Made by a program: the position numbers and the translations under genes. A DNA stretch of 64,000 nucleotides from Manihot esculenta (taxonomy: Eukaryota > Streptophyta > Magnoliopsida > Malpighiales > Euphorbiaceae): positions 26,919,027-26,983,026 of the forward strand of contig NC_035174.2 in the NCBI RefSeq assembly GCF_001659605.2, given 5' to 3'. Below, one piece after another: positions 17,331 to 49,041 of this stretch. The first letter of the stretch is position 1; each line of letters starts with the position of its first letter. The notes under the pieces are model-generated. The model ran no database searches. It was not told the DNA's origin and saw only the letters and a list, made by a program, of their open reading frames with translations.

Positions 17331-18518
17331 CCTACTCCTCATCCCTGCTCCCCTTGTGATGAGACTCCTCATTCGCGGACATAATCGCCTCGGGAGGCAT
17401 GTCTAGAAACCAACTATTGTTGGAGACCATAGAGTAACCCCTTAATAATCCGTCAAAAGTAGGAGAAGAAGGCATAGGAGGAACCCTAGTGCCAGCCATA
17501 TGAGAAGGAGATTCAGGATTGGTTTAAACCTGAGGAGCGGGGTCTGAATTGGAAGACTCTCCGACGATCTTGGATCTCTTAGAAGGGTCCGATTGACTCA
17601 CCTCTTTTCTTCTTTTTTCTGCAAGCTTCCTCACCCATGAAGCCTCCCCGGCCATCTCTGTAAAGAAAAATAAAAAAAAAATCATTAAGTTAAAAAAGAA
17701 AATAAGAAGGCAAAAAACTAAAATAAATACCATCATCAGCCTCATCCGGAGATAGACCAATAATATTAATCAGATGAGCCCTCTTTTCAGCATGAATAAA
17801 AGGCTGATAGGGTTGTTTCCCTTGGGATGAGGCAATGGCCAAGAGACACGAATAAACAACAAATTTATCATCTGTTATTTGAAGTTCCTTTGAACCACTG
17901 CGGATGAAAATTCCAACTCTCATAAAGCTAACTCAACCCTTTAGTGAAGAATGCCTCAACATAAAAAATCTCAATTTTCAATTCTTAAGAGACTGAGGAA
18001 AGTAATCAAAAAGACCACTTTCTTTCTTAGGAATGAAATAGTATAAAGCTTAAGCCCCCCTATGATACAAGGGGTACATTGAAGCAAGCACACGAGCATA
18101 GAGCGTTATGCAATGAAACCGACAAAGAGACATGAATGAAAGTAAAATCCTCCAACTATTGGGATGGATCTGAGCTATGCTAGAACGAAAAAGGGACAAC
18201 ACCTCCACAATAAAAGGATCTAAGGGAAAGCGCAGCCCCACTTTCAGCTGCTCCATGTAGGCTATAATACATCTACGTTTTGTCACCATACAATCGGCCA
18301 TCTGTTCTTCATCTTAAAGGTACCCCTTAAACACTTTTGAAATATGGAAGATTAGTGTTATATCTGCAATATCTTCTTGGCTGACCGTAGAGGCCTCGAA
18401 GAGCATAAGGCAAGTTAGATGAGGTTGTAGTAAGAGATGCCTCCGCTGTTATTGGTTCTAATTCATGGGCTCCAATAAATTCTTCATCTTTCGCCAAATC
18501 TGACAAGGAGAAATGCAT
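17331..18518 (-). pseudogene. Pseudogene, putative gypsy-type transposon protein (copy B)
   Basis: On the minus strand it begins MHFSLSDLAKDEEFIGA at 18518, then breaks frame. It continues with LDPFIVEVLSLFRSS and IAQIHPNSWRILLSFMS (the Transposase_28-like core), then KQPYQPFIHAEKRAHLIN up to a donor-like GGTATTTA. After an intron-like segment ending TACAG comes MAGEASWVRKLAEKRRKE, a basic segment with DPSKRSK that could act as a nuclear localisation signal. Each block has a counterpart in copy A. Several frame breaks make it non-functional, although the codon that is TAG in copy A is intact here. Confidence 0.6.
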
Positions 18519-19570
18519 TGCAATGGCCAAAAACCTCCTTCACAGAACACCCCTGGCCGAAAACCCAGCTGACCAGAAACCTCCTTGGCATAACACCCCA
18601 TTCCGAAAACCTGAGAGTCTGAAAACCCAACTTGTCAATTGACCAAGAACCCAACAAACTGAAACTCAAAGAAAGGCTTGTAGCTGGACGCCGAAAACCC
18701 AAAGTCGGAGGCCGATACCTGAAGTTCGAAGGCCGAAAAGCAAAGCAGGAGGCCGAAAATTGAAATCGTCGAAACCCAAAAAAGGCTTTAAGCCAAAGGC
18801 CGAAAACCCAACAAGACCGGAAAAGCTGAAAATCACCAACACCCGAGAAATCAGAAACTTTCAATGGCACAACACCCCCAAAGATTGAAAACACTCAAGA
18901 AAAAACTACAAGCAAAACTCATAAATAAATTTTTTAAAAAAATTACTTTGAGCAAAAGAGCACAAAAAAAACAAGTTCCAAAATTCAGCAACCGAGAAGC
19001 CTACTCTTTAGAGAGAGAATATAAAAAGAGAAGGAGGAGAGTTGAGGGTTGGTGTGGGGCAAATGAGCCCCACACACCCCTTATATAGGAAGTGAACAAT
19101 GTGAGTAATGAAATGACCCTTCATTTTCTTAATATAGTATTACAAAAAAAAAAAAAAAAAAAAAGAAAAAGAAGAAGAAGAAAATTTCCTGAACATAAAG
19201 ATGAAAAAATGGCGGACTAATGGTACCAACACAAGAACCCTCAAAGGCCCAAAAGGCTGAATGGAGCCTCTCTATAATCCGTTCCAAACCAAACAAACCT
19301 TCAAGACCCGTACTAAAGTTCTAAATAGTAAAATTTCTTGTCCACCTAAAACTCAATCACATAATCAAAATCCTACCAGAATGAGACTACCGACAAACCA
19401 TTTAAAAATACAATTTCTAAGCATGTGAGGATCTCATTATCTGACCTTTTCTCGAAATTTATCTTAGATCACTTATTGACTTAAAGATCAAAAGTTTTAC
19501 CCACCAAACCATCCGGTATTTTTTATTATTTTGCATATCTATTACCCGAAAAAAGACCAAACGAGCATCA

Positions 19571-25541: not shown

Positions 25542-25546
25542 CAAAT

Positions 25547-26038
25547 TGATGATCTGAGATCCAATAGAGTAGGGTTTTACAAGGGTTTTTGTATTAAAAG
25601 ATAAAACTTAAACTTTCTGGGGGTTCCCCCTTTTATCCATTTCGCTATGCTTGCTGATGACGTGTAAAGGCCTTTCCATGATTGGGACACGCGTCTCTGA
25701 CATACAGATTTGGATGTACGAGGGTATCAGCAGCCTGCTTCATGCGTAACGACCTCTGATTCTCCTCGTGCGTACGTTCGAGCGGATCTGCTAGGCTGTC
25801 TGGATATGGCTCTGGATACTAGACTGGGCCGAGAGTCGGGCCGGACGCTGAGTCTGAGAGGAGAGGGCCTGCTGGTCGCGGACTGGGCCGATTTGGGTGA
25901 AGGACCTTGGTTGAGCCCGGCCTTGAAGGTTGAATGAGCCAGGCTTGTTGTGCATATCAGGTGCGTGGGCCTTTGCAAGATGGGCTTTTGGCTATGATCC
26001 AGGCCCTGGGCCAGGATGGAGAAATCCAGCGGTCATCA
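25547..26038 (-). repeat. 3' LTR of element 1
   Basis: Starts TGATGATCTGAG and ends CGGTCATCA on the + strand. On the + side it is followed by ATTGCCCCTTCACCTTCTC, whose reverse complement is the purine-rich tract expected upstream of a 3' LTR (26039-26058). That fixes the element's orientation as minus. Confidence 0.92.
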
Positions 26039-26339
26039 ATTGCCCCTTCACCTTCTCGGTAGTTATTGCCCCTACTGCCGAGGGGGTGAATATCAAGAAC
26101 CATTATGACCGCGCCTGTTCGTGGTCAGGTGCCTTAATAACATCCTTTCATCTTTCTGTCATTGTGCAGTTTCCGAGTCCTATCTGCTCTTTCCCTTTTC
26201 TGGCTTTTCTTCATTCTTCGTGTTCTTTGCTGTCTTTATTTTCCTGTCATCATTATCTGGACATGTCCTTTCTTTCCTTTTCCATGACTATCTTTTAAAA
26301 TTCTGACACCGTTAGCTTAGAGCATAGCTCTGCTCCGTG

Positions 26340-27400
26340 CTAAGGTCTCAAGCTCTGGATGTATATCAACGCTAGCTTTTCTTCATTCTCAAATCTTCTG
26401 TTGGAACAAGAGGTTCTTCCTTTCCGTTTCTCTGCAAAGGATCCATTTGACGCCTTCTTCAAACGGAATGAGGTGAGCTTGAGTTTGCATTGCTTTGTTG
26501 CCCCAAAGGTTAATCTTGTTTTTATCATCTCGATGGAGAATTGTTTCTGACTTGTCTCTGTTTTGAAACTTTTTGCAGTACCTGAGATAAGAATGGGTCA
26601 GTTCAAAATTCTTGAAAATTTGATGTTACCTCTAAGGAGTCTGGACGGTGCTTCGGAGATCCTGCTGGTAGGACGGCCGATGTATGGGATTATTCGGCAA
26701 GCTATGGAAACTGTTTTACCCAGGTTGTCTGGCCGGCCTCCTCCTCAGTTTGCTGTCCGAACTCCAAAGAGGTTCTGGGCCGATGAAAGGTCTGCTCCTT
26801 CTTCCGAGAAGAAAAAGGAAATTTCCTTAATGCCCCCGTCGCCTTCTTTTGATATAAATGGAAGTGGAGAGAATGATCAACTTATTGTTCCCTTTGATGT
26901 GAAGTACCAGTATTATGCAAGACTTTGGTGTGAAGTACCAGTATTATGCGGGACTGAGATCTGCTGCGCTCAGTCAAGCTTCTGGCGATACCTTCGAATG
27001 TATGCTCAGCGATCTCCTTGGAGCCGTAACTTGAAAGCTCGTGTTTTCATGGTACATACGGACAAGCTCGGATATTATATCCTGTCCGTATGCATCGTGA
27101 ATCACATCTGGGCAATCAGGGTGTCGACCTATTATAGGGGAACAGTGAGAAATACTTATGGGAATCAACTTGTTCAATTCCCCTATGATAGCGAGACATA
27201 TCTTGGCCTTTTCTGCCAAACTCACATTTCGAGCTGCGAGAGTTCTTCCGAGCTAAAGATTAGAATAGTAGGATAGGTGGTGAAATATCCGGACATGTAA
27301 ATCCCTTAAGGATAGTCTTCCATTCTGTAATGTAGGTCCGGACATGTAAATCCTTTAAGGATAGTCTTCCATTCTGTAATGTACTTTTCCTTTAATGAAA
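26340..27400 (+). pseudogene. Relic of an upstream antisense gene unit in element 1
   Basis: Transcribed opposite to gag-pol. A first open block (26359-26470) encodes MYINASFSSFSNLL and ends AFFKRNE before a GTGAGC donor-like site. After a TTTTGCAG a second block (26576-27273) runs PEIRMGQFKILENL and is open for about 230 residues. The blocks do not join in phase as they stand, and no domain is recognisable. A 3'-UTR-like tail with a duplicated 45-bp segment follows. The leader upstream (26040-26110) and the tail resemble those of the next antisense gene, suggesting a decayed tandem copy. A 21-bp segment with GTGAAGTACCAG is duplicated at 26899-26950. Confidence 0.35.
27293..27384. repeat. 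Direct duplication of about 47 bp
   Basis: GGACATGTAAATCC followed by TTAAGGATAGTCTTCC and ATTCTGTAATGTA occurs twice back to back with one substitution, in the presumed 3' UTR of the relic antisense unit. Confidence 0.8.
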
Positions 27401-27499
27401 TTCTTGTTTTCCGTTCATACTTGAGCTTATTCTTTTCTTTGTTGTGGATGAAGTACTGGTACTGTTCTCTTCATAGTTTTAACCAACTAAACTTTGTTT

Positions 27500-27800
27500 C
27501 GTTTCGTCCGAGCTGAACTGACCGTACTTATGAACTCTCGCTTTTAATCAATGAGCCGAGCTTTGGACCTACTTAGCCAACTGGGAGGTCAGTTTGCTTT
27601 TCCGAGCTGAACCAACCGACCTGTAAGCTCGGCCCTTATTTGATGGATTGAGCTCTGAACCTCCTTAGCCGGCTGAGCTCTCAAGTTTCGTTTTCCGGAC
27701 TGGACTGGCCGACTTGTGAGCTCTATTTCGGTTTGCTTTTTCCGAGCTAATACCGACTTGTGAGCTCTATAAGTTGAACTCAGAGCCCTTAGCTCTGTAT
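27500..27800. repeat. Degenerate repeats of a CCGAGCTGAAC / GAGCTC motif
   Basis: Words such as CCGAGCTGAAC, CCGACTTGTGAGCTC and GCCGAGCTTTG recur about every 50-70 bp. A similar GAGCTCGGCC-rich stretch occurs after the second antisense gene (about 31640-31740), so this is a spacer shared by both units. Confidence 0.45.
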
Positions 27801-28281
27801 GATTTCGAGGTGCCCTTATTGCCTCCGATCTCGCAGTATTTGTTCAATAACAATCGAGTCAGAACTTATAACTTTTTAAATAGTAAGCAGGTCTGACCTT
27901 TATCATGCTTCCATCTGTGGGCTAAGTTGCTCTGATTGCCGAGTTGGGATTGTGGACAGCAAATGGGCTCTTGAGTGATGGGCTGTTATCACGAATTTGG
28001 CCTTTAACGGATGTGGAGGAGTCTAGCGATTATCTCTTTGCCCCTTTACCTTCTCACCAGTTATTTATCTAACCGTTGAGAGGGTAAACTTCGAGAGTAA
28101 TTAATGATCGCGCCGCTCCAAGACAAAACCGTTCAGATCAACGTTCCGTCTCATTATTGCCTTTCATTTCGAATTCCTTCTGTCTTCTGAAGAAACAAGT
28201 TCTTTTCTGCTCTCTGTCTCCCTGCAACTCCTTCTGCTTTTTCACCTTATTGCATTTTCAGGTACGCTTCCTTGTTCTTCC

Positions 28282-31200
28282 ATGGCCCTTTCAGAGCTTC
28301 CTGATGTTGTTAACATTGAATCACGTATTACTCCTTCCAACATAACTAAGTACATTTCTCGGAGGCTCTTAGATACTCCTCTGTATCTGATTCGAGCCCC
28401 CCTTTCAAACGAAAGGATAGTCCTTCCTTATCCTCCCCCTCCGGGTTTGGTGGATCCCCAAGAGAATCGTAGTATAGTGTTTTTCTTGAAGCAGAGAGAA
28501 TTCGGTTTATCGCTTCCTTTTACCCCTTTCTTTGTTGAGGTTTTTGAATACTTCGGGGTGACTCCTCGGATGTTATCCCCAAACTCTATTTTGTTCATGT
28601 CCTGTTTCGAGTCCATCTGCCTGAGTTGGGGTTTTACACCCACAGCATGTCTGTTTGTTACTTTTTTCCGTTTGGTTAAGGCGGTTCAAAACTTCTATTA
28701 CTTTTCCCCCCGTAGGGGGTTATCTCTTCTCACGGGCTACAAGGATTCTATAAAGGGATGGGTAGAGAATTTCCTTGTGGCGGAGCTGAAATTAGGGTCC
28801 GCTCAGACGTGGGAGGTGGATCTAAGTTGGGGAGAGATTTATCCGGGTTGCAACGACCTGCCCCAATTGAGTCTTATTGAGCAAGTGGGGTTGCTTCGAC
28901 TGACTTCCTTTGAAAGGAAGTATGACGTCGAGAAGTGTTTGTTCGTGTCCAATCGTAGGGACGTCCGGGCCATGGGTATAGCACTTTGTCCAGTTATTCT
29001 GTTTTCTCTTTGCCCGTAATATCAGAAAGTATGATGACTCTTCATAATTTTGTATTTTTGCAGCTTCCGAAGTAAAAATGGACGACATAAAGTTTCCCAA
29101 GAACTTTGTCCTCTCTCGGGACAATATGCATGCAATTTTTGATGCCTTTGGGGATGGGCGTTCGGTAACTGAGATTGCTGCGGAGTTGGTTCAGGCTGCT
29201 TCCTCCAAGGAGGTTAGCCGACCTCCCGCCAAAGCTTCTTCTCAAGCTTCAAAGCCGAGCTCCCGCAGCACCAAGTCGTCTCAGCCATCTAGCCGTGGTG
29301 GGTCGAGCTCAGCTCTTAGGCCTGTTGAAGGGTCTAGGTCTGCTCCAGCCTCCTCAGAGGGCGTGAGGGAAGCTTCCCTGGCTATTGCGGAGCAGTCCTC
29401 CGTTGTTGAACAGGTGGAGCGGGGTACTGCCCATTCTTCTGGAGAGGTATCGGGGGGAAAATCTAAGTCCCCTATTGAAGACAAAGAGGCCTCAGGGACA
29501 GGGCTGGAGATCGTCCTTATAGAGGACTCAGCTCTAGAGGTTCCTACCCAAGATGCCCCTGCCCCTGCGAGGACTGAACCTGAGGGTTCTGAGGGCGTTC
29601 CGTCAAAGACCGGGGACAAGCGCCCAGCCCCTTCTGGAACAGCTGCCCCATCTCCTGCTCGGAAGAAGTCCAGGGCTGCTGCAGGGTCTTCTCCGGCTCT
29701 TCCTTCCATTGGGAAAGGAAAAAGTGTGGCTGCCGAGCCTCCGTTGTTTTCTTCTGACAATTCTCTGAAAGCACCAGACATTACCTCCGAGTCTCCGGCC
29801 AGTGCTGTTGCTGACTTTCTCAGAGAGCAAATGTTTGGTGGAGTTACAGAGGCTTCGGACCCTCGCCTTCTTACCCTGACTGGTCTTTTAGCCAGTTCTA
29901 CTAAGGAGCAAGCATCCTTCCAGTCTCGCTCTCGTGAGGAGCTCGGATCCTCGATTAGGGAAATGCTTCTGATGGTAAATCATTTTGCCCCTTTTTTTTT
30001 CAGTTTGTTCTTTTTCCTTTTCCTGACAGTTGTTCTCCTGTACTAGGTGACGGGCCTCCTTATGGAGGTGGATATCCGTGATCGTTCCCTCCGGGAGTCC
30101 GTAGACCGCCGGATTGAAGAGGCGCGTCTGGAGGAGAACATATCTGCAACCAATGACGCGAGGGGGAATCTGGTAGCCGCTCGGGAGCAGATCCAGTCCC
30201 TCCAAGTGGAATTGCACTCTGCACTGGAAGCCCTAAAAAAGGCTGAGGAAAAAGCAGCTGAGACAGCAAAGCATACCTCGTCCTTAGAAGCAGAGCTGTC
30301 TCGAACTCGTGGGGTCCTCAAAGTGTCTGATGAGAGGGCAGCTGCCTTGGAGGTTCGCTGCAAAGGAGTTTCGGAGCAGCTGTCCTCTATGGCAGATGCT
30401 CGTCAAGAGAGGAATGAGGCTTTGAGCCAAAAAGCTAAGGTCCAGCGTCAATGTGATGCTGTAAAGGCCGATTTTGAAGGACTTCAGGCGCATCTTAATG
30501 AAGTGAAAACTCAGAAGGAAAAGGCCCTAGCTCGGATGGAGGTCCTTGAGCAGGAGTTGAGTACGAGCTCTGATCGTATCAGAGACCTGGCTTCATCGGC
30601 TGAAGAGTTCAACCTTCGCCACCAGCAGCTCAACCATGAAGTCAGGACCTTGGAGCGTAAGTGTTCAGCCCTGCTTAAGGTAGTAAAGCATTTTGAAGAC
30701 AAATCTCAGCTGGTGCGTGAGCAATGCATAGCGGAATATCAGGAGTCCGATGAGCTGAAAAGGAAGATCGAGCAGGCCTGTGAGGCTCACCTCCAGGACT
30801 ATAAGGACTCTTCTGAGCTTAAGGAATTTGTAGCTGAGGCCTGTGAAGCACATCTTGATGAATTTAGGGCTTCTGGTGAAATGAAAGCGGCTGTTCTTAA
30901 GAAAGCCTTCCGTATGTATGTAACCGGCTATAATCGCGGTTTAAGAGAAGCCAAACACGCTCCTGATACTCCTTTGGCCGAGCTTCGCAAGTACGAAGCG
31001 GACTCAGATGGCGAGCCAGTGTTGTATGGGGAGGATGATTTTCCTATGCCCCGAGGAGATTGTCGGAGGGACATATGCCGGCCAGCTGAGTCTTCTTCGG
31101 AAGAGTCCGAGCTAGAAAGAGAGGACGTGGAAGTCCTTGGGTCGAAGGATGATGACCCTGTTTCTGAGGGGGAGAACCCTAACCTTGGGTCAGAGGTTGC

Positions 31201-31348
31201 TCCTGCTGTTAATATTGAGAGCTCTGATCCAAGGGATACCGAGCTTCCTGCAGATATGACTGCCAATAGAGATAATGTAGGCGAGGAGGTTTTAACTAAT
31301 GTAAGTCCTTTAAGGACTATATATCCCCCCACCTCGTCAAAGAGATAA
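28282..31348 (+). CDS. Intact spliced antisense gene of element 1: Transposase_28-like / coiled-coil protein, 968 aa
   Basis: Encoded opposite to gag-pol, between pol and the 3' LTR. Three exons join in phase: 28282-28975 (donor GTATAG), 29064-29974 (acceptor TTTTGCAG, donor GTAAAT) and 30047-31348 (acceptor TACTAG). There is no internal stop. Residues about 70-180 (FGLSLPFTPFFVEVFEYFG, LSPNSILFMSCFESI, VQNFYYFSPRRG) match the plant 'putative gypsy-type transposon' domain. Residues about 250-500 are Ser/Pro/Ala-rich with a basic KRPAPSGTAAPSPARKKSR, a likely nuclear localisation signal. From about 570 to 840 the chain is Lys/Glu/Leu-rich in heptad style, a long coiled coil. The C-terminus is acidic. 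Function is unknown. Extra antisense ORFs are known in Tat elements such as Grande; whether this protein helps or hinders the element is open. Confidence 0.75.
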
Positions 31349-31929
31349 ACTGTAATAATTATTTCTAATGAAATATCAATTTTTCTTTTTTCTCAAACTT
31401 TTCTTGTTCTACGTATATCTTGGAATTTAACTCTACTTTTAATGTATGCCACGTATGCACAAACTTTGAATTGATCTTAAGTTACGGGCTCAGCTCTTAG
31501 CTAATAGTCTGAGAAATCAAATTTCATACCTTTTAATGGCGATTAGCATGTCTGCCTTTTGCTTTTAGCCTTTTCTTCTTGGTTGTGAATTTGGATGTTT
31601 GTTCCAGATAAACAAGTTTCTTCCTTTATGAACCTTTTGAGAGAGGGAGCTCGGCCTTTTGTTTTGGCTTTCATGCCTTGGGTTTTTGATGATGCAAGTC
31701 TATCCGAGCTGGGAGCTCGGCCTTTTGCTCGATAGCCAAACTTTTAGCGTTAGCATCTATTTTGAGGTCGACGCTTTTTTAACCATTGTGCCCCGAACCT
31801 CGTCATGAGGTCGAAACCTGCTTTTGTCTTGGTAGCTCTGGGCTCCTTTCGTTTTTGAGGTCGGAACTGTGTTTTTATGAGTTTGTCCCTGCATGGAAAA
31901 TTTTCATTTCGAGAGGCTTTTAAGCCCTT

Positions 31930-32600
31930 CACCGACCATTTTTGTTTTCAGGGGATCTTACGAGATCCTGGCTGTTGTTGTTCCGGGGTGACCTCAGGGC
32001 CCTTCCCGCGGTTTTTCGTTTTCCCGGGAGTTCTGGGGGATCCCGGTCTTCATGCTCCGGGAGGCATCCTTATGATCCTCACTGGCCGTTCCGGGGTGAC
32101 CTCGGGGCCCTGCCGGCTGTTTTTTGTTTTGTTTTGTTTTCCCGGGAGTTCTGGGGGATCCCGGTCTTCTTTGTTTACCCGGGAGTTCTAGGGGATCCCG
32201 GTCTTCATGCTCCGAGAGGCATCTTTATGATCCTCACCGGCCGTTCCGGGGTGACCTCGGGGCCCCGCCGGCTGTTTTTTGTTTTGTTTTGTTTTCCCGG
32301 GAGTTCTGGGGGATCCCGGTCTTCTTTGTTTACCCGGGAGTTCTAGGGGATCCCGGTCTTCAAGCTCCGGGAGGCATCTTTATGATCCTCACCGGCCGTT
32401 CCGGGGTGACCTCGGGGCCCCGCCGGCTGTTTTTTGTTTTGTTTTGTTTTCCCGGGAGTTCTGGGGGATCCCGGTCTTCTTTGTTTACCCGGGAGTTCTA
32501 GGGGATCCCGGTCTTCATGCTCCGGGAGGCATCTTTATGATCCTCACCGGCCGTTCTGGGGTGACCTCGGGGCCCCGCCGGCTGTTTTTTGTACCTTTTG
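31930..32600. repeat. 155-bp tandem array in element 1
   Basis: About four units, with GGGGTGACCTCGGGGCCC recurring at about 31986, 32093, 32248, 32403 and 32558. Each full unit also holds two copies of GGGATCCCGGTCTTC and a TTTTGTTTTGTTTTG tract. 155 is not a multiple of 3, so the open frames rotate between units and are not a gene. The same words, in the same orientation relative to the element, build the 72-bp and 117-bp arrays of element 2. Confidence 0.88.
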
Positions 32601-32817
32601 AGGTTTTGCGCAAGATTCAGGCTCATTGGCCTTACTGTCGCTTCGTCATCTCAGCTGGTTTTGGACCTAACTGAGGTCTTGTTTTTTCAGGGGATCTCTC
32701 TGAGCCCTGTTCTTTTCTTTTTTATGGAAGAATATTATTCATAGAGACAATCATGTTGAATAAACAATTTTATTTACTCATATTCATCAAAATACAATGT
32801 TTTTCTTTACAATTACT

Positions 32818-35800
32818 TCAAGGAAAATACCTCTTTAGGTGCTGGATGTTCCAAGCGTGGGGCTCGGGGTTTCCTTGCATATCTTCGATTCGGTATACCC
32901 CTGGCTTGACCACTTTTGTCACCTTGAAAGGACCTTCCCAGGTCGAAGCTAACTTGCCCGCGGCCACTCTTTTTCCTGTAGCTTCCAGGTTTCTTAGGGT
33001 CAGGTCTCCCACTTTTAAGCTTCTTTCTCTGACTTTTTGGTTGTAATATCTTGCTGCGCGTTGTTGATAAGCGGCAGTTCGGACTTGGGCTTCTTCCCTG
33101 ACTTCCTCAAGAGCATCCAGGTTGCTTCTTAACTTATCCTCATTGGTATTCTCATCAGCAAATTGGACTCGATGAGTGGGGATCTGCAGTTCAACTGGGA
33201 CTACGGCTTATGTGCCATAAGCAAGTGCAAACGGTGTTTCTTTAGTGGGCGCTCTGGGAGTGGTTCGGAGTGCCCATAGTATGCTATTGAGTTCTTCTGC
33301 CCAATTCTCCTTTGCGCCATCCAGCCGTTTCTTTAATCCTTGAAGGATAGCTCTGTTAGTGACTTCTGTTTGGCCATTAGTCTGAGGGTGAGCCACGGAG
33401 GAGAACTTATGCCAGATGCCTATGTTCGTCGTGAAGGCTCTGAAAACGCTGCAGTCAAATTGTCTGCCGTTGTCTGAGATAAGTACTCTAGGTATGCCAA
33501 ATCTGCAGATGATATGCCCCCATACGAAATCTATCATCTTGCGAGCTGTGATTGTGGCTATTGCTTCTGCCTCTGGCCATTTCGAGAAGTACTCCACAGC
33601 CACCACTACAAATTTCCTTTGCCCCGTAGTCTTGGGGAAAGGTCCCAGGATGTCGATTCCCCATTGTGAGAAAGGCCATGGACTGGATATGCTTGCTTGA
33701 GGAGTGGCGGGGGTTCTGATGGCATTAGCAAATCGCTGACATACGTCGCACCTCCGGACAAACTCTTCTGCTTCTTTTGTAACAGTGGGCCAATAATACC
33801 CTTGCCTGAATATTTTGTTGGCTAATGTCCCTGCTCCCTCGTGAGCCCCACATAGGCCTCTATGTATTTCCTCCATTACCTTTGCAGCTTCTTCCGGACT
33901 CACACACCGGAGCCATGGGCTGGACTTCCCTTTTCTGTATAGGGTTCCCCTTATTGCTTGGTAGTTGGCAGCACGAGCTGCTATCTTTCTGGCTTCATTT
34001 TTATCTTCGGGGAGCTTGCCCTCCTCCAAGTATCTCAGGTATGGGGTCATCCAAGTTGGGCTCTGTTCTACTTGTAGTACCGTGTTTGTCGTTTTAAAAG
34101 CAGGTGTGCGGACATGCTGTATATATACTTCATCGGGAAGCTGTTCTAACTCCTCTTTGGTCAATCGACTAAGCAGGTCTGCTTCCTCATTTTCATCCCG
34201 AGGTATTCTTTGAAATCTGACGATAACTCCCCGACCCGTGAGCTCGGCTTCTATAGTTTTTACTTTATCGAGATAATTCTGCATGATGGGGTCCCTAGCC
34301 TGATATACTCCCTTCACCTGGTTGATCACCAACTGAGAGTCGCTATTCACCTCGAGGTCTGTTACCCCGACCTCCGAAGCTACCATCATTCCATTTACCA
34401 GGGCTTCATATTCGGCCATATTGTTAGAAGCCGTGAATTCTAGACGCAAGGCATAACATACTTTAAAACCTTCTGGCCCCTTAAGCATTATCCCAGCGCC
34501 ACTACCCTCAGCGCCTGATGCTCCGTCTACATACAGCTTCCAGCTAAATTCTTGGGGGGGCTCTCTCTCTTCCTCCGTTCTTGATAACTCTGAGGATGAT
34601 CCTCCTTTCTCCTCATTGAATGCGCATTCTGCTATGAAGTCAGCCAGAGCTTGGGATTTTATAGCTGTTCGAGGTCGGTACTCTAGACAGTAAGGGCTAA
34701 TCTCTACAGACCATGCCAACATCCGCCCTGAGGTTTCCGGCCTATGTAGAATTTTCTTTAAGGGTTGGTCTGTCATCACGACTCCTTGGTGGCCTTCTAG
34801 ATAAACTCTGAATTTTCGGACTGCTAACAATAAGGCGTAAGCCAATTTTTCAATGTTCGAATATCTGACCTCAGTGTCTCTGAGTACCTTGCTAACGTAG
34901 AAAACAGGCTTCTGTTCTTCTTCTTCCACCCTTACTAGCACTGCGCTGATTGCTTGTTCTGAGGCCGCCAGGTATATCAGAAGTTCTTCTCCTTTTATGG
35001 GACTGCTGAGCACGCGAGGCGAGCTGAGATATTTTTTAAGCTCTGCGAAGGCCTTTTGGCAATCTTCTGTCCATTCGAAATTCGGTACTTTTCTCAACTT
35101 TTTGAAGAATGGCAAGCATTTCTCTACCGACCTCGACATGAATCGGTTAAGCGCTACTACTCTCCCGGTTAGTCTCTGAACATCTCTTACACAGGTCGGT
35201 TCTAGCATATTCAGTATGGCTTCCACTTTCTCCGGATTAGGCTCGATGCCTTTACCGCTCACCATGTACCCCAAAAATTTTCCTCCCCTAATGAAAAAGA
35301 CACATTTTGCCGGGTTCAACTTCATTCTGTACTGATCTAATACCCCGAATACCTCCCTCAGATCTGCTATGTGTTGTTGGAAAGTGGAACTTTTGACCAC
35401 CATATCGTCTACATACACTTCCAGATTTCTACTGATCTGATTTTTGAAGATTTTATTCATCAACCTCTGATACGTTGCCCCGACATTTCTCAATCCGAAG
35501 GGCATAGCCCTATAACAATAAGTTCCATCTTCAGTTATGAATGAGGTCTTTTCCTCATCTGACCTTTCCATTGGGATTTGATGATAACCCGACATAGCAT
35601 CCAAAGAAGACATATAATCAAAACCGGCCGTTGAGTCGACCATTTTATTAATATCGGGTAAGGGATAACAATCTTTAGGGCAGGCCTTATTTAGGTCGGT
35701 AAAATCTATACACATCCTGTATTTGCCATTGGCTTTTTTGACTAACACAGGATTTGCCAACCACTGTGGGTACATAACTTCCCTAATAAAGCCTGCCTCT

Positions 35801-37521
35801 TCTAGCTTCTGCACTTCTTCCCGGGTGGCCTGCTGCTTCTCTCTTTCCACTACTCTCTTCTTCTGCTTTACTGGTCTGGTCTCGGGGAGAACATTCAATC
35901 GGTGTGTCATCACTTTGGGGTCAATTCCCGGCATGTCTGAAGGCTTCCATGCGAAGGTCGGCGCGTGACTTCGGATCAGGGCCATGACTTCACCTTTTTG
36001 TTCTTTGGTGAGGCTGGCATTAAGACTGAAGACCTTGTTTGCATCTGCTTCTGACAAGGGGAAGGTCTCCAATTCTCCAACTGGCTCTGTCCGGGCTTCT
36101 TTTGTTTCATCCCTGACCTCCAGAACTTCCGAGTCGAGTGCTTCTTCAGTTGAGCTCGGCTCTGTTACTGTGGCCAAGTATACTGCCCGTGCTTCATCCT
36201 GGCTACCTCGAACCATTCCCACTCCTTCCTCTGTTGGGAACTTGAGTGCTAAATATCTGATGCTGGTGACAACTTCAAAGTTGAACAGCGCAGGCCTCCC
36301 CAAAATCGCATTGTAGCTCAGTGGGAGTTTGACCACCAAAAACACCTCATGATGGGTGCGATCTCTGGGTGCTTCTCCCAAGGTAAGAGCCAGCTTTACT
36401 TTTCCCTCTACAAGAACCGGTGCTCCTCCGATCCCCTTGATTGGTGACTGGTCCCGAACCAGCTGTTCCTCTGGAATTCCCATCTGCTGAAACACTCGGT
36501 ATGGTAGCAAGTTGACTTTACTCCCATCATCCACTAAGACCTTCTTTACCCGATAATTATGAATGACAGCTTCAATGACAAGCGCATCATCATGGGGCAT
36601 CTGAATACCCTGAGCATCTTCTGGGGAGAAGGTGATGATCATGGGAGAATGGTTAACGATTTGCATGACTTCACTACTGCTAGTCTCTCCTTCCCGGTTT
36701 CTCTTCTTTCCTCGGCGGCTCATCCTTCCTCCCATTCCTCCAACAATCATGTGGATGGTCCCACTGGACCCATCATTCACTGGTCCAAGTCCTATTCTTC
36801 TAGGCGTCTGAGTTGTCGGACCAGACTGAGGCCTCTGTCCCTCTGGTTTTTTCACAAAATTTTTGAGGTGTCCCCTTTTTATTAGCCTCTCAATCTCCGC
36901 GATTAACTGAAAACAGTTATTCGTATCGTGCCCATGGCTCCGGTGGTACTGACAATACTTGTCAGGATTTCTTTGATCTGCTTCCGACTTCATGGGTTTG
37001 GGCCATTGGAGGAACTCCTTATCTTGGACTGCCATGAGCACTTCGGCTTTGGACGCGTTGAGGGGGGTTGGCTTCTCGGGAACCCAAGGAGGGAGCACTC
37101 TTGGTTCAAGAGCCCGAGGAGGAGGTGGAGGCCTTTGATCCCTTTTCTCCCAAGCCTGTTTGTACGGCTCAGGCCTCTTTCCATGTTTCTTCTCGTGTCT
37201 CTCCGGCCTTCTCTCCTCCAGGGCTTTTTCTTTTCCGGCCATCCCTTTAGCAAATCTACTCGTCACCAAGGCGTCATCCTGCCTTATATACTTCTCCGCC
37301 CTCTTCATCAACTCAGCCAGTGAGGTCGGAGGTTTTCTGCTCAAAGAACCAAAGAACTCGGCAGAGGTTGTTCCCTTTTGCATGGCCTCCACCGCTCTTC
37401 CTTCATCCAGCTCGGGAATCTGCAGGGCCTCCGTATTGAAGCGGGCAACATACTCTCTGAGTGATTCACCTTCTTTCTGTTTCACTGTTTCTAGATAGCT
37501 CGTCTTCCTATCAGCTGGCAC
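32818..37521 (-). pseudogene. gag C-terminus and pol of element 1, with an in-frame stop
   Basis: Open on the minus strand for 1437 codons from 37521, then a TAA at 33208-33210, then open in the same frame to 32818. In order by residue: retrotransposon gag remainder (1-90), Cys/His knuckle CQYHRSHGHDTNNC (190-203), aspartic protease with VDDGS (330-334) and AILGRP (405-410), reverse transcriptase with SLDAMSGY, MPFGLRN and YVDD (703-706), first RNase H (about 850-950), second RNase H (WKLYVDGASG, NMAEYEAL, NSDSQLV; about 993-1120), integrase HHCC (H1220, H1227, C1258, C1261) and the D1290, D1350, E1386 triad with 35-residue spacing. The stop removes the integrase C-terminal domain, whose coding remains open beyond it. 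The protease has D-D-G at the active-site position instead of D-T/S-G. Confidence 0.9.
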
Positions 37522-37526
37522 CCCGG

Positions 37527-38363
37527 TTATGAACCGGCTGATGAAGCGGATGGCAAGATCTCCAAAACTTCTAATGCTTTCGGCCTCCAGGTTGTTGGGA
37601 ACACCTTACACATTAAGGCATCTGACAGGGTTTGCAACTCCATAAAGGTCTTATAGTTCATGACATGCTCTCTCGGGTTACCAGCTCCATTATAGGCCGC
37701 CATTGGCGGCATCATAAACTTCTTGGGAACGGTCTCCTGCTGCACTATCTTTGAGAAAGGAGAAAAGGTGGGCAAAGAGGTTTGGCTCTGATCTTTCTTA
37801 CCTAGCTCGGCTAAGAGCTGCTCTTTCAACCTTTTCAGCTTTTGGTTCATTTTCTCGTCTTCTGGGCTGGATCCTTTGCCCCAGCTGTATTCCTCCTCCT
37901 CTGTTTCAGTTCTCGTTTCCCTGGTTGTTCCGGCAGAATAGTTGTCCGCCTCCTCATTTTCTATCAACTCTCTTGCCCTTCTCCCATGGATTCGGGCCTC
38001 CGGTTCTTCCTCTTCCCCGGCATTGTGGCTGTTAGTTTGGAGGCGGTCAAAGGTAGGTCGGGGTTCATTGATTCTGGGTTCCTCCACTACTGGGAGTGCA
38101 TTTACTGGGGTGCTAAGGCCCCTCTGTTGCATTATTTGCCCCAACCAGTGAGCAGTAGTCTGTAGCTGGAGGGCCATAGTTTGAATGTCCTGGTTAGACA
38201 GAGTCATGGTGGGAGTATTCCCTGCCAAGCTTGGCGAGGGATTAAGAGGAATAGGCGTTTGGTTATTCAACGTTGTAGGGCTAGAGAAAGGGAACTGCTG
38301 CCCATCTTGGGCAGAGCTCAGGTCATTTGGAATGTTAAGGTTACTTTCTTGGTGGTTTGCCAT
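37527..38363 (-). pseudogene. gag N-terminal part of element 1, broken by a frame shift
   Basis: Starts at the ATG at 38361-38363 (MANHQESNLN), about 60 bases after the primer-binding site. It encodes a Pro/Asn/Ser-rich head, an acidic Glu-rich middle (TRTETEEEEYSW) and the beginning of the gag core (AYNGAGNPREHVMNYKTFM, DALMCKVFP). After DALMCKVFP the frame is lost near 37600 and ends at 37527, while the downstream gag residues (IRSFGDLAIRFISRFI) follow in another frame. The usual aromatic WF segment between the two is missing, so a short out-of-frame deletion is the likely cause. A near relative of this gag head occurs at 47511 in element 2. Confidence 0.82.
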
Positions 38364-38421
38364 CGTGGATCTCAGTGGGTTTTGAAAGTGAAAACTCCGG
38401 TGATGAAAAGATCTCCTTCGT

Positions 38422-38440
38422 TTCCCACAGACGGCGCCAA
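38422..38440 (-). other. Primer-binding site of element 1
   Basis: On the minus strand TGGCGCCGTCTGTGGGAA begins just after the 5' LTR end. It is complementary to a tRNA 3' end with CCA. The identical site sits next to the 5' LTR of element 2. Confidence 0.8.
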
Positions 38441-38441
38441 T

Positions 38442-38936
38442 TGATGATCTGAGATCCAATAGAGTAGGGTTTTACAAGGGTTTTTGTATTAAAAGATAAA
38501 ACTTAAACTTTCTGGGGGGGGTTCCCCCTTTTATCCATTTCGCTATGCTTGCTGATGACGTGTAAAGGCCTTTCCATGATTGGGACACGCGTCTCTGACA
38601 TACAGATTCGGATGTACGAGGGTATCAGCAGCCTGCTTCATGCGTAACGGCCTCTGATTCTCCTCATGCGTACGTTCGAGCGGATCTGCTAGGCTGTCTG
38701 GATATGGCTCTGGATACTGGACTGGGCCGAGAGTCGGGCCGGACGCTGAGTCTGAGAGGAGAGGGCCTGCTGGTCGCGGACTGGGCCGATTTGGGTGAAG
38801 GAGCTTGGTTGAGCCCGGCCTTGAAGGTTGAATGAGCCAGGCTTGTTGTACATATCAGGTGCGTGGGCCTTTGCAAGATGGGCTTTTGGCTATGATCCAG
38901 GCCCTGGGGCAGGATGGAGAAATCCAGCGGTCATCA
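38442..38936 (-). repeat. 5' LTR of element 1
   Basis: The second LTR copy, 495 bp. By eye it differs from the 3' copy by about seven substitutions and a G-run length change (CTGGGGG versus CTGGGGGGG). Followed by target duplication CAAAT. Confidence 0.92.
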
Positions 38937-38941
38937 CAAAT

Positions 38942-39740: not shown

Positions 39741-40690
39741 AAAAAAAAAAAGATGGGAGAAGCCTCGAAAGAGTATGGGTTTGAAAGGGAGAAAGAAATC
39801 TTCTCTCTCCTATTTTTAGTTTTTAAAATAAAAAGTATAGTTAGGATTAGTTTGTAGGCTATTTTATCCAACAATCATAATTAATTTCTTTTTAATTTCT
39901 ATAAAATCTTCTATTTACCCCAATTGTTCTTTTCCTTTTTAATCCTACCATATGTATGCTTTCATATATTTTACATTTTATTCATATTTACCATCATTTA
40001 ATATTTTACATACCTTTTAAATTTTAGCCTAGTCAATATTATCAATTTTGACCCAAGTTAAAAATTACCCATTTCTTGAAATTACTATTCATCTTTTTAA
40101 AAATACCATTTAAATCTATATTTTGATGTCTATTTTGAGTTTTAGACCATCTTTATCAACCTTTTATATCCAATATTCATATTTAAATATTTATTAATCA
40201 ATACTATTCATAAATGAAAAGAGTATATATTACCTTCACTATCCTGTACAATTTAAGACTCAAAATTTTAGGATGTGATATACATCCACGACATCATCTT
40301 TTTCGATCATTGTTAAAAGCATCCAATTATAAGCTAACTCAATATATTTATTATAACTATATTATACACCACAGAGTATTTCTCTATCTTAGGCCAAAGC
40401 CTCCTTCTCCTCCATGGGAAGGCACTTCTCTAGAATGGGCAAAAGTTTGTTATCACAAAGTCCATCTCTTCAATTAGGCAAGAGTTGATGTCTATTATGG
40501 ACAAAGAGCCATATCTTTCAATCATACTCTTATTTATAGTGTTAAACCTTTTCATTGTAATCTAATTAAGAATCTTATCCAATTTAAGAATAACACATAA
40601 ATAAGAGATCTACTCGCAGTTAAGCCTTCAGAATAAATTTTTCACTTTAATTAAAATATAATACTTAGGATTATGAGTTCTCATATATTG
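39740..40690. repeat. Direct repeat A bordering the AT-rich array
   Basis: Contains landmarks that recur in the same order at 45900-46725 and again at 62360-63340: AAGAGTATGGGTTTG, TCTTCTCTCTCC, AATATTATCAATTTTGACC, AATACCATTTAAATCTATA, then TTTCTCTATCTTAG and ACACATAAATAAGAGAT. The copy on the right is interrupted by element 2. Two long direct repeats on either side of a non-coding array suggest a large non-autonomous LTR element or segmental duplication. Confidence 0.45.
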
Positions 40691-43600
40691 AGAAATAAAT
40701 CTTGCACTAGGAAAGAGTATCTTATTAATATTTTGAGTGACAAATCTAAGAGCTTCTTTTATGTACACGAATGAATGATTTCAAAGAATACTTTCCTAGA
40801 TATTTAGGTTTTTGAATTCCAATTCATATCTCTATCATTTGGCATTAAAATTCTTCTCACTATCACAAAATCATCTTAACAATGAAAATAATAATAATAA
40901 TAATAAAATAAATTGTTAGAAAATAACAATAAACAAAGAGTATAACGAGATTAAAGTACTAAAACAAATACAATTTTTATAATATTTTATTCAAATGAGA
41001 TGAAATAATATATATAGATTTCTTAGAATTTAGCAAAAAAATTAGATATAATATTTAGAATATTAGCTCCCATTGCATAAAACATATAAAAGGAAGGGAC
41101 ATCAAATAATTAATCATGTGCAAAACAAGATATGATAAGATAATTCACATTTTGCTACCAACATGATAATCACCCAAAAATAATAAAAGGATGTGATCAT
41201 GTAATTACACAAATTAAACTAGACCTAACTGGTATCAATTTTTTCAAATTCATTTCATGTCAATTTTTTTATCATTAACTATCAAAGAATTTTTTTTTTT
41301 TTTAAAAAGTCTCCATATATTGAGTATTTAATTAAGACCATGAGTCTTTATATATTGAGCCATAAATCTTTGAATAAGAGAAGAATATCTCATTAATATT
41401 TTGAGTAAAAAATATAAGAGTTTCTCTTATACAAATGAATGCATGATTTCAGAGAACACCCTAATGTTTCTAAGTTTTTGAATTCAAGTCATATCATTAT
41501 CGCAAACATTTGACATTAAAATGTGACGATTACAAACTCATCTTAATAATAATAATAATAATAACAATAATAATAATAAATCAAATTGTTAAAAAATAAC
41601 AATAATAATAATAAACTAAATTGTGAAAAAAAAATAATAATAATAATAAATCAAATTATTAAAAAATAACAATAAGAAATAACGTACAAGTTAAAGAGTA
41701 TTACAAGATTAAAATCCAAAAATAAATATAGTTTTTTACATATTGTTTATTTTATTGTTAGAAAATAACAATAAGGAATAACAAGTTAAAAGATTATTAC
41801 AAGATTAAAATCGAAAAACAAATGTAGTTTTTTACATATTGTTTATTTTATTTGAAGAAAAATAACATATATAGATTTCTTAGAATTTAGTAAAAAAGAA
41901 ATTTAATATAATATTTAGAATAGTAACTCCCATTAAATAAAATATATAAAACAAAGGAACATAAAATAATTAATATAGCCATGTGCAGAATAAACTATGA
42001 TAAATTCATAGTTTGCTCTCAATCTGATAATCACCCATAAATAATAAAAGAATGTGATATGTAGTTACACAAATTGAATTAGACTTTGACTAGTGTAAAT
42101 TTTTTCAAATTAATTTTATATCAATTTCTTTATCATTAATTATCAAAAAAATTCAAAAAAAATGTCTCCATCTATTAAGTATTTAATTAGAATGATGAGT
42201 TCATATATTGAGAAATAAATCTTGCATTGAAAAAGAGTATCTCATTAATATTTTAATTCGCAAATCTAAGAGTTTCACTTATACAAATGAATGCATGATT
42301 TCAAAAAATGCTTGCTTAGATGTCCGAATTATTTGAATTCCAATTCATATGGCTTCTTCTTATCACAAACTCCTCTTAATAATAACAATAATAATAAAGC
42401 AAATTGTTAGAAAATAACAATAATAATCAACATCACAAGATTATACCCGTTTAAAGAGTATAACGAGACTAAAATCCTAAAACAAATGCATGTTTTTACA
42501 CATTATTTATTTTATTCGAAGGAGAAACAATATATATAGATTTCGTAGAATTGAGTAAAAAAAAAACATAATATTAGCTCCCATTAGATAAAATATGTAA
42601 AAGAAAGAAATATAAAACAATTACCCACAAATAATAAAAAAAATATGATTATATAGTTACACAAATTAAACTAGACCTAACTAGTGTAAATTTTTTCAAA
42701 TTCATTTTATGTCAATCTCTTTATCATTAATTATCAAAAAATTTCAAACAGAAAAAAGAAAAAAAGAAAAGAGTTTCAAAAATTGAGTACTTAATTAAGA
42801 TTATGAGTCTACATATATTAAAGAATAAATTTTGCACTAGTATCATTAATATTTTGAGTCAACAATAATAATAAAACAAATTGTTAGAAGATAACACTAA
42901 GTATCAGCATCACAAGTTTAAAGAGAATAACAAGATTAAAGTTCTAAAACAAATACAGTTTTTTATATATTGTTCGAGAGAGAAACAATGTACATATAGA
43001 TTTCTTAGAATTTATAAAAAAAATTAATATAATATTTAGAATATTAGCTCACATTAGATAAAATATGTAAAAGAAAGAATCATAAAACATACCCACAAAT
43101 AATGAAAGGATATGATCATATAGTTAGACAAATTAAACTAGACCCGACTACTAAATTTTCCCAAATTCATTTTATATCAATCTCGTTATCATTAACCATG
43201 AAAAAATTTCAAAAAAAAAAGTTTCCATATATTAAGTACTTAATTAAGATTATGAATCTCTATATATTTAGAAATATATCTTTGCACTAGAAAATAGTAT
43301 CTCATTAATATTTTGAGTCACAAATCTAAAAACTTCTATTATACAAATAATACATGATTTTAAAAAATACTTGCCTAGATAAAAATTTAGCATTAAAATT
43401 CTCCACATTATTACAAATAATAAAGCAAATTATTAAAAAATAACAATAAGTATCAGCGTTACAAATTTAAAGAGTATAATGAGATTAAAGTCTTAAAACA
43501 AAGGTAGTTTTTTATATATTGTTTATTTTATTCGAATGAGAAATAATATATATAGATTTCTAGAATTTAGCAAAAAAAAATTGCCATAATATTTAAAATA

Positions 43601-44021
43601 TTAGCTCCCATTGAACAAAATATATAAAAGAAAGCAACATAAAATAATCACACACAAATAAAAAAAAAAGATATGATCATATAGTTATACAAATTAAACT
43701 AGACCCGACTTGTGTAAATTTTTCCAAATTCATTTCATATCAATTTCTTTATCATTAACTATCAATAATTTTTTTTTTAAAAAAAAGGTCTCTATATGTT
43801 GACTACTTAATTGAGATATACTGATTAATAAATCTTGCACTAAGAAATAGTATCTCATTAATATTTTGAGTTACAAATCTAAGTTCTTCTCTTATATAAA
43901 TACAAATGAATGCATAATTTTAAAGGATACTTGCCTAGACATTTCAAGTCTTTGAATTCCAATTCAGATTGTTATAACAAGCATTTGGAATTAAAATTCT
44001 CCTGACTATTAGAAACTCATC

Positions 44022-44090
<69 letters not shown>

Positions 44091-45720
44091 CAAATTGTTA
44101 GAAAATAACAATAAAATTCAGTATTACATAATGAGATTAAAGTCCTAAAATAAATGTCATTTTGTACATATTGTTTATTTTATTTGAAGAAAAAATAATA
44201 TATATATGATTCTTAAAATTTAGCAAAACAAATTGACATAATATTATCACAACCTCATTTTAACAATAACAGTAATAATAAAGCAAATTGTTAGAAAATA
44301 ATGATAAGTATCAATATTACAAATTTAAGGAGTATAATGATATTAAAGTCTTAAAACAAATACAATTTTTTATATATTATTTATTTTATTCGAATTAAAA
44401 ATAATATATATATATAGATTTCTTAGAATTTAGAAAAAAATAATTTACATAATATTTAAAATATTGTCTTCCACTGAATAAAATATGTAAAAGAAATCAA
44501 TATAAAATAATCCCACACAAATAATAAAAGAATATAATCATATAATTACACAAATTAAACTAGATCCGAATTGTTTAAATTTTTTCAAATTCATTTCATG
44601 TAAATTTCTTTATCATTAACTATCAATTTTTTTTTTCAAAACGTCTTCATATATTGAGTATTTAATTGAGATATACTGAAAAATAAATCTTTCATCAATA
44701 AAGAGTATCTCATTAATATTTTGAGTTACAAATCTTAAATGCTTCTCTTATATAAATACAAGTTTTTGAATTCCAATTCAGATAGTCATCGCAAGCATTT
44801 GAAATTAAAATTCCCCACACTATCACAAACTCATCTTAATAATAACAATAATAAAATAAATTGTTAGAAAATAATAATAAGATTCAGCATTATATAACGA
44901 GATTAAAGTTCTAAAATAAATGCAGTTTTTTATATATTATTTATTTTATTTAAAAAAAATAATATATATATAATTTTTAAAATTTAGCAAAAAAATTGAC
45001 ATAATATTTAGAATATTAACTCCTATGAAATAAAATATGTAATAGAAAGTGGCATAAAATAATTAATACCGGTACTTGCAGAACAAAATATGATAGGTAA
45101 TTCACATTTTGCTCGATCTCTATAATTAAATATCAATGAATTTAAAGAAAAAAAGAAAAAAAAGAAAAGAATCTTCATATATCAAGTACTTAATTGGGAT
45201 TATGAGCCTCCATATATTAAAGAATAAATATTGCACTAAAAAAGAGTATTTCATTAATCTTTTGAGTTACAAATCAAAGAATACTTACCAAGATATTTCA
45301 AATCTTTGAATTCCAATTCATATGGTTATCACAAGCATTTAGCATTAAAATTCTCTTCACTATCGCAAACTTGTATTAACAATAATAATAATAATAAAGC
45401 AAATTGTTAGAAAATAACAATAAGGTTCACCATCACAAGTTTAAGAGTATAATGACATTAAAGCTCTAAAACAAATACAGGTTTTTACATATTTATTTTA
45501 ATCAAAAGAAAAATAATATATATAGATTTCTCAAAATTTAACTGAAAAAATTGACATAAATTTAGAATATGAACTCCCATTAAATAAAATATATATAAAA
45601 AAGAGATATAAAACAATTAATACAGCACAATAACCTAATTCACATTTTGCTCACAATATGAAAATTAAATTGGACCTGACTAGTGTAAAAAATTTTTAAT
45701 TTACTTTTATGTGAAATTTT
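40650..45720. repeat. Degenerate tandem array of AT-rich units, about 0.45-0.87 kb each
   Basis: A conserved block reading (G)A(A)ATAAATCTTGCAC...AGTATCTCATTAATATTTTGAG recurs about eight times (near 40690, 41355, 42210, 42820, 43270, 43825, 44690 and 45225). Each copy is followed in order by TTTGAATTCCAATTCA, a (TAA)n microsatellite, AAATTGTTAGAAAATAACAA, TATATAGATTTCTTAGAATT, TTAGCTCCCATT, a CACAAATAATAAAA block and ACTAGACC. The longest (TAA)n run is at 44024-44090. No coding capacity. Confidence 0.7.
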
Positions 45721-45899: not shown

Positions 45900-46729
45900 T
45901 GGAAGAGGTCTTGGAAGAGTAGCACATATGGGTTTGGAAAGCATAATAAGATCTTCTCTCTCCCCTTTTTAATTTTTAAAAATTAAAAATATGGTTAGGA
46001 TTACTTTGAGTGCTATTTTATCCAAGAATCATAATTAATTTCTCTTTAATTTTTATAAAATTTTAAATTTACCCCTACTCTTTTTTTCTTTTTATTGCTA
46101 CCACATTTATACTTTCATGTATTTTACATTTTATCTATGTTTACTATCATTTAATATTTTATATATATTTTTAAATTTTAACCAAGTCAATATTATCAAT
46201 TTTGACCAAAGTTAAAAATTTACCCATTTCTTGAAATTATAATTTATCTTTTTCAAAATACCATTTAAATCTATAATTTAATTTCTATTTTTAATTTTCT
46301 ATTATGTTACTCAATTTATTTTAACCCTAAAATTTATATTTAAATATTTATTACTAATCAATATTGTTAATGGATAGAAAAAGTGTCTGTACTATTCACT
46401 CCCCAACACTGGTATAATCATAATTAATTTCTCTTTAATTTTTATAAAATCTTAAATTTACCCCAAACTCTTTTTCTTCTTTTTATTGCTACCCCATGTA
46501 TATTTTCATGTATTTTACATTTTATCTATGTTTATTATCATTTAATATTTTACGTATCTTTTTAAATTTTATCCAAGACAATATTATGAATTTTGACCAA
46601 AGTTAAAAATTTACTCATTTCTTGATTATTCATCTTTTTAAAATACCATTTAAATTTATAATTTAATTTCTATTTTGAGTTTTCTAGTCTTACTCAACTT
46701 ATTTTAACCTTAAAATTTATATTTAAATA
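45900..46729. repeat. Direct repeat B (left part), interrupted by element 2
   Basis: Homologous to 39740-40170. An internal segment is also duplicated: TAATCATAATTAATTTCTCTT to TTAAAATTTATATTTAAATAT occurs at about 46027-46350 and at about 46413-46730. Element 2 inserted in the AAATA of the second copy; the sequence resumes at 62360. Confidence 0.45.
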
Positions 46730-47432
46730 TGATGATCGCTGGATTTCTTCACCCCGGTTTAAAAGGCCAGGCCCATGAAAACAGTCCATGATCCGAAGGC
46801 TTCAAAATTTCCTTCGAGAGCCAGGTCCAGCCCGCTCAGTCATAGGGCCGGACTCCGCCTAGACTCCTCAATCAAACCGGCCCAAACCTCTCGGCCCAGT
46901 AATCAGGCCCTCACCAGGCCCAACTTCAGCCCTACCATTCAACCTAGCCCGGAAAGGGGAAAATGACCAAGATGCCCCGCTGGTAGGTCCTTCCGCATGC
47001 GTATCAGAGGAGAATCATACGTATCAGAGGAGAATTAATGGCCGTTACCCATGGAGCAGGCGCCTGACACATCCGTACATACGGAGCTAGGCGACAGAAG
47101 ACAGCTAGCATTGTGGCAGAGAGACAGATATATATATCATTGTAGAAGCCACGCAGAAGGGGGCTCTCTTCTTCTTCCTTCTCCTTCCTGGACACCATTT
47201 TTATTCTTTCTGTAACCCTTGCCTAAATATACTACTCTGAGCCATAAAATCTGACTTGAGCGTCGGAGGGCCTCTGCCGGGGCACCCCCCGGTAGGCCCC
47301 TGACCATTCTTTCTTATTTTACAGGTCCTTTCACCAGATAGAACATGGAGAGACCCATCAGGGAGCCCAACAAGAAAGGACCCAGAGGAAAACCAGATCT
47401 ATCATGGACCAGGAAGAGGAAAATATTTATCA
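46730..47432 (+). repeat. 5' LTR of element 2
   Basis: Starts TGATGATCGCTGG and ends AAAATATTTATCA, followed after two bases by the primer-binding site. A 63-residue open frame (46775) occurs in both LTR copies and has no recognisable domain. Confidence 0.92.
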
Positions 47433-47434
47433 AA

Positions 47435-47452
47435 TGGCGCCGTCTGTGGGAA
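47435..47452 (+). other. Primer-binding site of element 2
   Basis: TGGCGCCGTCTGTGGGAA directly after the LTR, identical to that of element 1. Confidence 0.82.
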
Positions 47453-49040: not shown

Positions 49041-49041
49041 G

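Follow-up and report, generated by a model that had tools for sequence, protein, structure and literature searches.

A 13.4-kb retrotransposon of cassava carries, on the strand opposite gag-pol, a gene whose 968-codon frame runs uninterrupted through three exons. This observation, made in a 64,000-nucleotide stretch of cassava DNA (the window), is real and confirmed as a whole, and the interpretation put forward in an earlier note on the same DNA is partly supported. The element is very probably a young member of the Retand lineage (Tat clade, Ty3/gypsy retrotransposons), and the gene its antisense accessory gene of the Transposase_28 type (aORF-3R). Sequence comparison further makes it likely that the ORF with Transposase_28 and the one with the coiled coil are exons of one spliced gene, with short introns common to related copies. 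More tentatively, and by analogy, the product might be a protein that multimerises in the nucleus and regulates the element. The whole explanation, a spliced Retand antisense gene encoding a regulator that would work in the manner of the viral protein HBZ, has in our estimate a probability of roughly 0.7. Published work is cited below from the available parts of each text.

A young Retand-lineage element with two visible lesions

The gene sits in an LTR retrotransposon that is complete and lies on the minus strand (25547-38936), with intact ends and a 5-bp target duplication that reads CAAAT on the plus strand (25542-25546 and 38937-38941). Its minus-strand LTRs, delimited by alignment of the pair and by their TG..CA ends, measure 492 bp on the 3' side (25547-26038) and 495 bp on the 5' side (38442-38936). 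They are identical in 488 of 498 alignment columns (98%), and the differences comprise seven mismatches and one 3-nt gap in a G run. The corresponding divergence (K 0.0144) places the insertion roughly 0.55-1.0 million years ago at the plant substitution rates that we take to apply. Immediately inside the 5' LTR lies a primer-binding-site-like stretch starting with TGGCGCC (38416-38439, minus strand). The same strand carries the 5' part of the gag frame (37527-38459; first listed ATG at 38363), which breaks near its end, and a frame for the end of gag, reverse transcriptase (RT), RNase H, a second RNase H (RVT_3) and integrase (33208-37521), which an in-frame stop closes at 33208-33210.

In pol, the Pfam domains are ordered as RT, RT_RNaseH (846-944), RVT_3 (1000-1119) and Integrase_H2C2 (1208-1265), and this order supports the Tat-clade assignment proposed previously. 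In Ogre and Retand, an additional RNase H of archaeal type is described between the first RNase H and integrase (PMC6317226), and the cassava element has this arrangement. Between pol and the 3' LTR it also has an antisense Transposase_28 (TRP28) ORF, on the plus strand with gag-pol on the minus strand. The 492- and 495-bp LTRs and the internal region of ~12.4 kb fall inside the ranges published for Retand (315-1194 bp and 7380-12869 bp, respectively; PMC11963269). The distance from pol to the 3' LTR, 6779 or 7169 bp by choice of the pol end, is slightly above the maximum of the published 2933-6566 bp. Gag and pol had been described as broken in the earlier note. Lesions are indeed present, but just two are visible, the gag frame break at ~37.52-37.6 kb and the integrase stop, upstream of which the pol frame is open over 1437 codons.

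Several other repeats share the window. A tandem repeat of 155 bp x 3.7 (32018-32592) lies between pol and the antisense gene, and the GC-rich tandem-repeat region at 31949-32592 recurs in opposite orientation, at 77-92% identity, in a second LTR element (57020-57888). This second element (46726-62356) has LTRs that are 98.7% identical and a leader resembling that of the first; it holds a gag-like frame of 808 codons (52604-55030, minus strand), a 27-bp tandem array (57954-60567) and a direct duplication of 1506 bp (49940-51445 and 55156-56661, 99.93% identical), and it contains no match to the antisense-gene proteins. An AT-rich tract with diverged direct repeats (40639-45063, about 60-86% identity) adjoins the first element. 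Finally, the window includes an inverted pair (11154-13279, plus strand; 17416-19487, minus strand) whose copies are 79% identical. Each copy holds a decayed Transposase_28-type gene with ~30% amino acid identity to that of the element, and within neither copy is there a match to the pol of the 25547-38936 element.

Exons, junctions and the predicted protein

The antisense gene lies on the plus strand between pol and the 3' LTR, with gag-pol on the minus strand. Exon 1 (28282-28975) encodes the Transposase_28 domain, exon 2 (29064-29974) a low-complexity linker rich in Ser, Pro and Ala that includes a bipartite-NLS-like motif (KR-x12-RKKSR), and exon 3 (30047-31348) a long coiled-coil-like helix and an acidic tail before the stop. 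Two GT-AG introns separate them, one of 88 nt in phase 1 (28976-29063) and one of 72 nt in phase 0 (29975-30046), with T contents of 44% and 53% against 23-33% in the exons. Joined, the three exons give 2907 nt, that is, 968 codons and a stop with zero internal stops, and this translation confirms the long uninterrupted frame that had been claimed opposite gag-pol. The individual open runs of 231, 303 and 433 codons compare with maxima of 180, 245 and 205 in 500 first-order Markov simulations for each exon. As claimed, both introns have consensus GT-AG borders, but the frame by itself does not fix the junctions. If introns may measure 60-200 nt, the frame stays open with 19 different GT-AG pairs at intron 1 and with 27 at intron 2, and the length of intron 2 is divisible by three, the intron being open save for its last codon. 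Placement of the junctions therefore depends on relatives.

Protein searches returned 17, 4 and 7 proteins, the last with exon 1. The full conceptual protein found 17 relatives, all cassava gene models, among the 7991 scored candidates sharing most words, and because scoring was confined to these candidates, relatives from other plants may be missed. The 17 full-protein relatives and the seven exon-1 proteins make up a comparison set of 24. In these models, which may be partly ab initio, the second junction (29974/30047) lies within an ungapped match in 11 of 17 (P0001-P0003, P0005-P0008, P0011, P0012, P0014 and P0015). The first (28975/29064) does so in three of 17 (P0006, P0014 and P0016), where the frame passes directly from exon 1 into exon 2, and two of the three are identical at 9 of 16 residues flanking the junction. 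The seven exon-1 proteins, 69-87% identical to the exon, span neither junction, and six of them continue beyond the exon-1 donor to end 14-20 residues on, at a stop or a contig end. In both decayed TRP28-type genes of the inverted pair (12.4 and 18.2 kb; ~30% identical), a T-rich stretch with GT..AG borders (71 and 73 nt) follows the domain at a comparable place and in phase 1, and from the sequence we read it as an intron. The short introns noticed at this locus are thus used again at related loci, and they are probably real and older than this gene family. Among viral and prokaryotic contig collections, DNA searches gave 3 and 66 pattern matches, none of which was confirmed by tblastn.

Introns in such a position would escape removal during the retrotransposition cycle because genomic RNA comes from the other strand. 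The stronger argument, that introns of a retrotransposon gene survive only if that gene is transcribed from the opposite strand, goes too far: the plant LTR elements Ogre and EVADE carry functional introns that yield subgenomic RNAs (PMC12786077).

The domain make-up previously assigned to the protein was largely borne out. Exon 1 matches PF04195 (Transposase_28) over residues 66-131 with E 2.2e-12 and 47.4 bits, against a gathering cut-off of 26.2, and no other Pfam family matches this exon at E up to 0.1. The nuclear-signal-like segment is the bipartite basic motif at residues 417-435. Residues 536-840 are proline-free and show a hydrophobic period of 3.5 residues that was reached by 5 of 1000 shuffles (81 and 20 of 1000 when the halves were taken alone), as expected of a coiled-coil-like part, and the acidic tail (residues 841-968) has a net charge of -20. 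The best Pfam match of exon 3 is Filament, below its cut-off, and bZIP is not among the matches to this exon at E up to 0.1. A sequence search of the PDB returned nothing significant (best E 0.024). Structure prediction of exon 1, suggested earlier as a check, was of limited use: a three-helix core (residues 82-134) recurs in both AlphaFold2 predictions, but their mean pLDDT values of 40.0 and 37.7 give no usable fold. The transposase label comes from the Pfam name alone, and nothing seen here indicates a transposase.

Selection, youth and alternative products of the locus

The contrast between an intact antisense frame and a broken gag-pol had been taken as a hint of selection, a reading that the numbers leave unsupported. 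At the gag-pol rate of two lesions per 5546 nt, 1.05 lesions are expected in 2907 nt, and the chance of finding none is 0.35. About 21 substitutions are expected in the coding sequence since insertion, and 56% of 4000 neutral histories simulated with substitutions only stayed free of stops. An indel-based estimate points the other way, since the LTRs differ by one indel event (3 nt, within the G run), which taken as a rate predicts about three coding indels and a combined chance of 0.03-0.08; coming from one event, the estimate was given little weight. With these rough estimates of neutral escape of the antisense frame ranging from 0.03 to 0.56, intactness was not accepted as proof of selection.

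Conservation among relatives speaks to the family rather than to this copy. In the distant paralogues P0012-P0016, the linker is 34-50% identical to that of the element, exon 1 is 54-69% identical (four of the five cover part of it) and the region of the second junction is 60-75% identical, all in local alignments with unequal cover. The bipartite basic motif occurs in 16 of 17 models, P0017 having a gap at the site, and the seven exon-1 proteins end before this region. For the TRP28 block of the decayed inverted pair (11154-13279 versus 19487-17416), omega is 0.36, and the shifted frames give 0.47 and 1.62. The patterned conservation suggests that the protein of the family was under constraint at some time; the claim of a preserved function in this particular copy is not supported. 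It is, moreover, somewhat probable that the frame was merely inherited from an active parent and that the copy is idle, its intactness reflecting youth. The low LTR divergence, the 56% of stop-free histories and the chance of 0.35 from the gag-pol rate all agree with this. The open-frame chance of 0.03-0.08 obtained when the LTR indel event serves as the rate does not, nor does the constraint suggested by the diverged members. Such a history is compatible with the reading that we prefer, that of a spliced antisense gene, which concerns the family.

Deposited models complicate the view of what the locus produces. One of them, P0004, named 'A-kinase anchor protein 200-like', matches the locus at 616 of 618 residues, and the other two fall at split codons. 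Its six exons have GT-AG borders (26704-26909, 29064-29091, 29195-29974, 30191-30541, 30710-30911 and 31059-31348). It shares the acceptor at 29064 and the donor at 29974 with the three-exon structure, and joins 26909 to 29064 with omission of exon 1. The plus-strand stretch 26593-26909, with a donor GT at 26910, is accordingly a possible upstream exon of the antisense transcript, of which P0004 uses 26704-26909. It is carried by 7 of the 24 proteins (P0002, P0004-P0008 and P0010), and four further proteins match it weakly through another part. Its presence in the models implies that the transcript may begin closer to the 3' LTR than the earlier note supposed. Two further roles for this exon were discarded: spliced at 28262 as an N-terminal extension, it is out of frame with the ATG at 28282 in this copy, and its 19% identity to the element's own exon 2 (E 0.19) does not justify calling it a duplicate.

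The models make it likely that the locus is alternatively spliced, or else poorly modelled. A protein that fuses all three exons might be rare or might not be made at all, given that P0004 omits exon 1 and that P0021 runs from exon 1 into intron 1. A stricter version of this idea, which we consider doubtful, is that the locus makes two proteins, a 245-residue Transposase_28 protein from exon 1 with intron 1 retained and a separate linker/coiled-coil protein from the upstream exon joined to 29064. P0004 fits the second of these at this very locus, P0001 and P0009 start within exon 2, and P0021, a cassava model, extends from exon 1 into intron 1; P0018-P0020 have 245 residues and end similarly. 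Against it, P0006, P0014 and P0016 read without a frame change from the end of exon 1 into exon 2, and P0018-P0020, which come from short contigs, need not be proteins. We keep one spliced gene as the preferred structure.

An action of the antisense RNA itself, through double-stranded RNA formed with the genomic RNA, is improbable. Such a mode has been raised as a possibility for this class of genes (PMC7264820), and antisense transcription would oppose the 3' part of the element, but an RNA mode needs neither a 968-codon frame across exons nor a basic motif present in 16 of 17 models. Least probable by far is a host gene recruited from the element or captured by it (domestication or transduction): although NCBI assigns these loci ordinary names (e.g., golgin-like, MAP7-like), the gene occupies the standard aORF place within a complete recent insertion with target duplication, the 17 models are spread over contigs of ten distinct lengths, and no relative clearly outside mobile elements is among the matches listed, the surroundings of the relatives not having been inspected.

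Sequence of the mobile gene recurs in related cassava models called golgin-, MAP7-, triadin- and flocculation-protein-like. The gene would thus account for wrong names among cassava genes (golgin-like, A-kinase-anchor-like, MAP7-like and flocculation-protein-like).

Proposed mode of action and comparison with known antisense genes

In the mechanism that we propose for the spliced antisense gene, a promoter near the 3' LTR would produce the mRNA, and the bipartite basic signal would bring the protein into the nucleus, where the coiled coil could multimerise it. The Transposase_28 helices would then act on DNA or RNA of the element, or on host chromatin, with the acidic tail as a contact surface, and the protein would tune expression of the element. 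The split structure makes the role of the gene easier to test.

The kind of gene is already known. The survey in PMC11963269 found antisense Transposase_28 ORFs in 97% of its Retand clusters; it calls their function unknown and suggests DNA binding and a regulatory role. The cassava gene resembles them in its place between pol and the 3' LTR, its antisense orientation, its PF04195 domain, the nearby tandem repeats and the large internal region of the element. In that survey, ORFs were scored by ORF Finder, whereas the cassava ORFs probably join as exons of one gene. The same survey lists 11 Smc (coiled-coil) domains among antisense ORFs, most of them apparently outside the TRP28 ORF. In maize, GENE23 of Grande is antisense and 3' of pol, has its own promoter and yields a nuclear product, and ORF4 of Silene Retand carries pfam04195 (PMC7264820); by these descriptions, the cassava gene is like both in being antisense and 3' of pol, and like ORF4 in its pfam04195 domain. 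The earlier verdict that the function is unknown holds, yet the class had already been described, with a nuclear member in Grande. Ty3/gypsy elements of common bean have an ORF2 of up to 939 aa in opposite orientation between the retrotransposase and the 3' LTR (PMC4093653). Its place and orientation are as in cassava and some copies have an SMC match, but the bean ORF2s are reported as single ORFs, unlike the probably split cassava gene. TRP28 and the plant mobile domain of Ogre eORFs are both named in PMC6317226, and the two might conceivably be kin.

The exon structure, in contrast to the class, appears under-described and is seemingly new in the searched texts. In the available texts of PMC11963269, PMC7264820 and PMC4093653, introns in the antisense gene are not reported. 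The main text of PMC11963269 lacks the terms 'intron', 'Manihot' and 'cassava' and has 'splic' in its reference list only, and that of PMC4093653 lacks 'intron', 'exon' and 'splic'. Likewise, titles and abstract starts among the matches listed mention no antisense-gene introns; the original descriptions of Grande and of Silene Retand might include them. A search for antisense and spliced transcripts is urged in PMC7264820. Should the ORFs prove to be exons, work on expression, localisation or deletion would have to target something other than what an ORF finder returns. An extension to the whole lineage, which we hold to be unlikely, is that a single ancient gene with alternative splicing underlies the antisense TRP28 and Smc-like ORFs across Retand, these being its exons. 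It would encode nuclear regulators of the element, with TRP28-containing and TRP28-skipping isoforms that act differently.

The closest functional parallel may be viral. HBZ and APH-2/3/4 of the human T-lymphotropic viruses are antisense, spliced and wholly or partly nuclear, and HBZ has a bZIP and an activation domain (PMC10186651). The cassava gene is like that of HBZ in orientation and place, being antisense to gag-pol on the 3' LTR side, while gene models and an NLS-like motif hint at splicing and a nuclear product. Its protein, known here from sequence, is much larger and gave no bZIP match. Thus, a mode of action like that of HBZ is possible, but the protein is not an HBZ and is unrelated to it. 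If the lineage-wide extension is true, giant plant retrotransposons would have evolved, independently of deltaretroviruses, a regulator comparable to HBZ that is likewise antisense and spliced.
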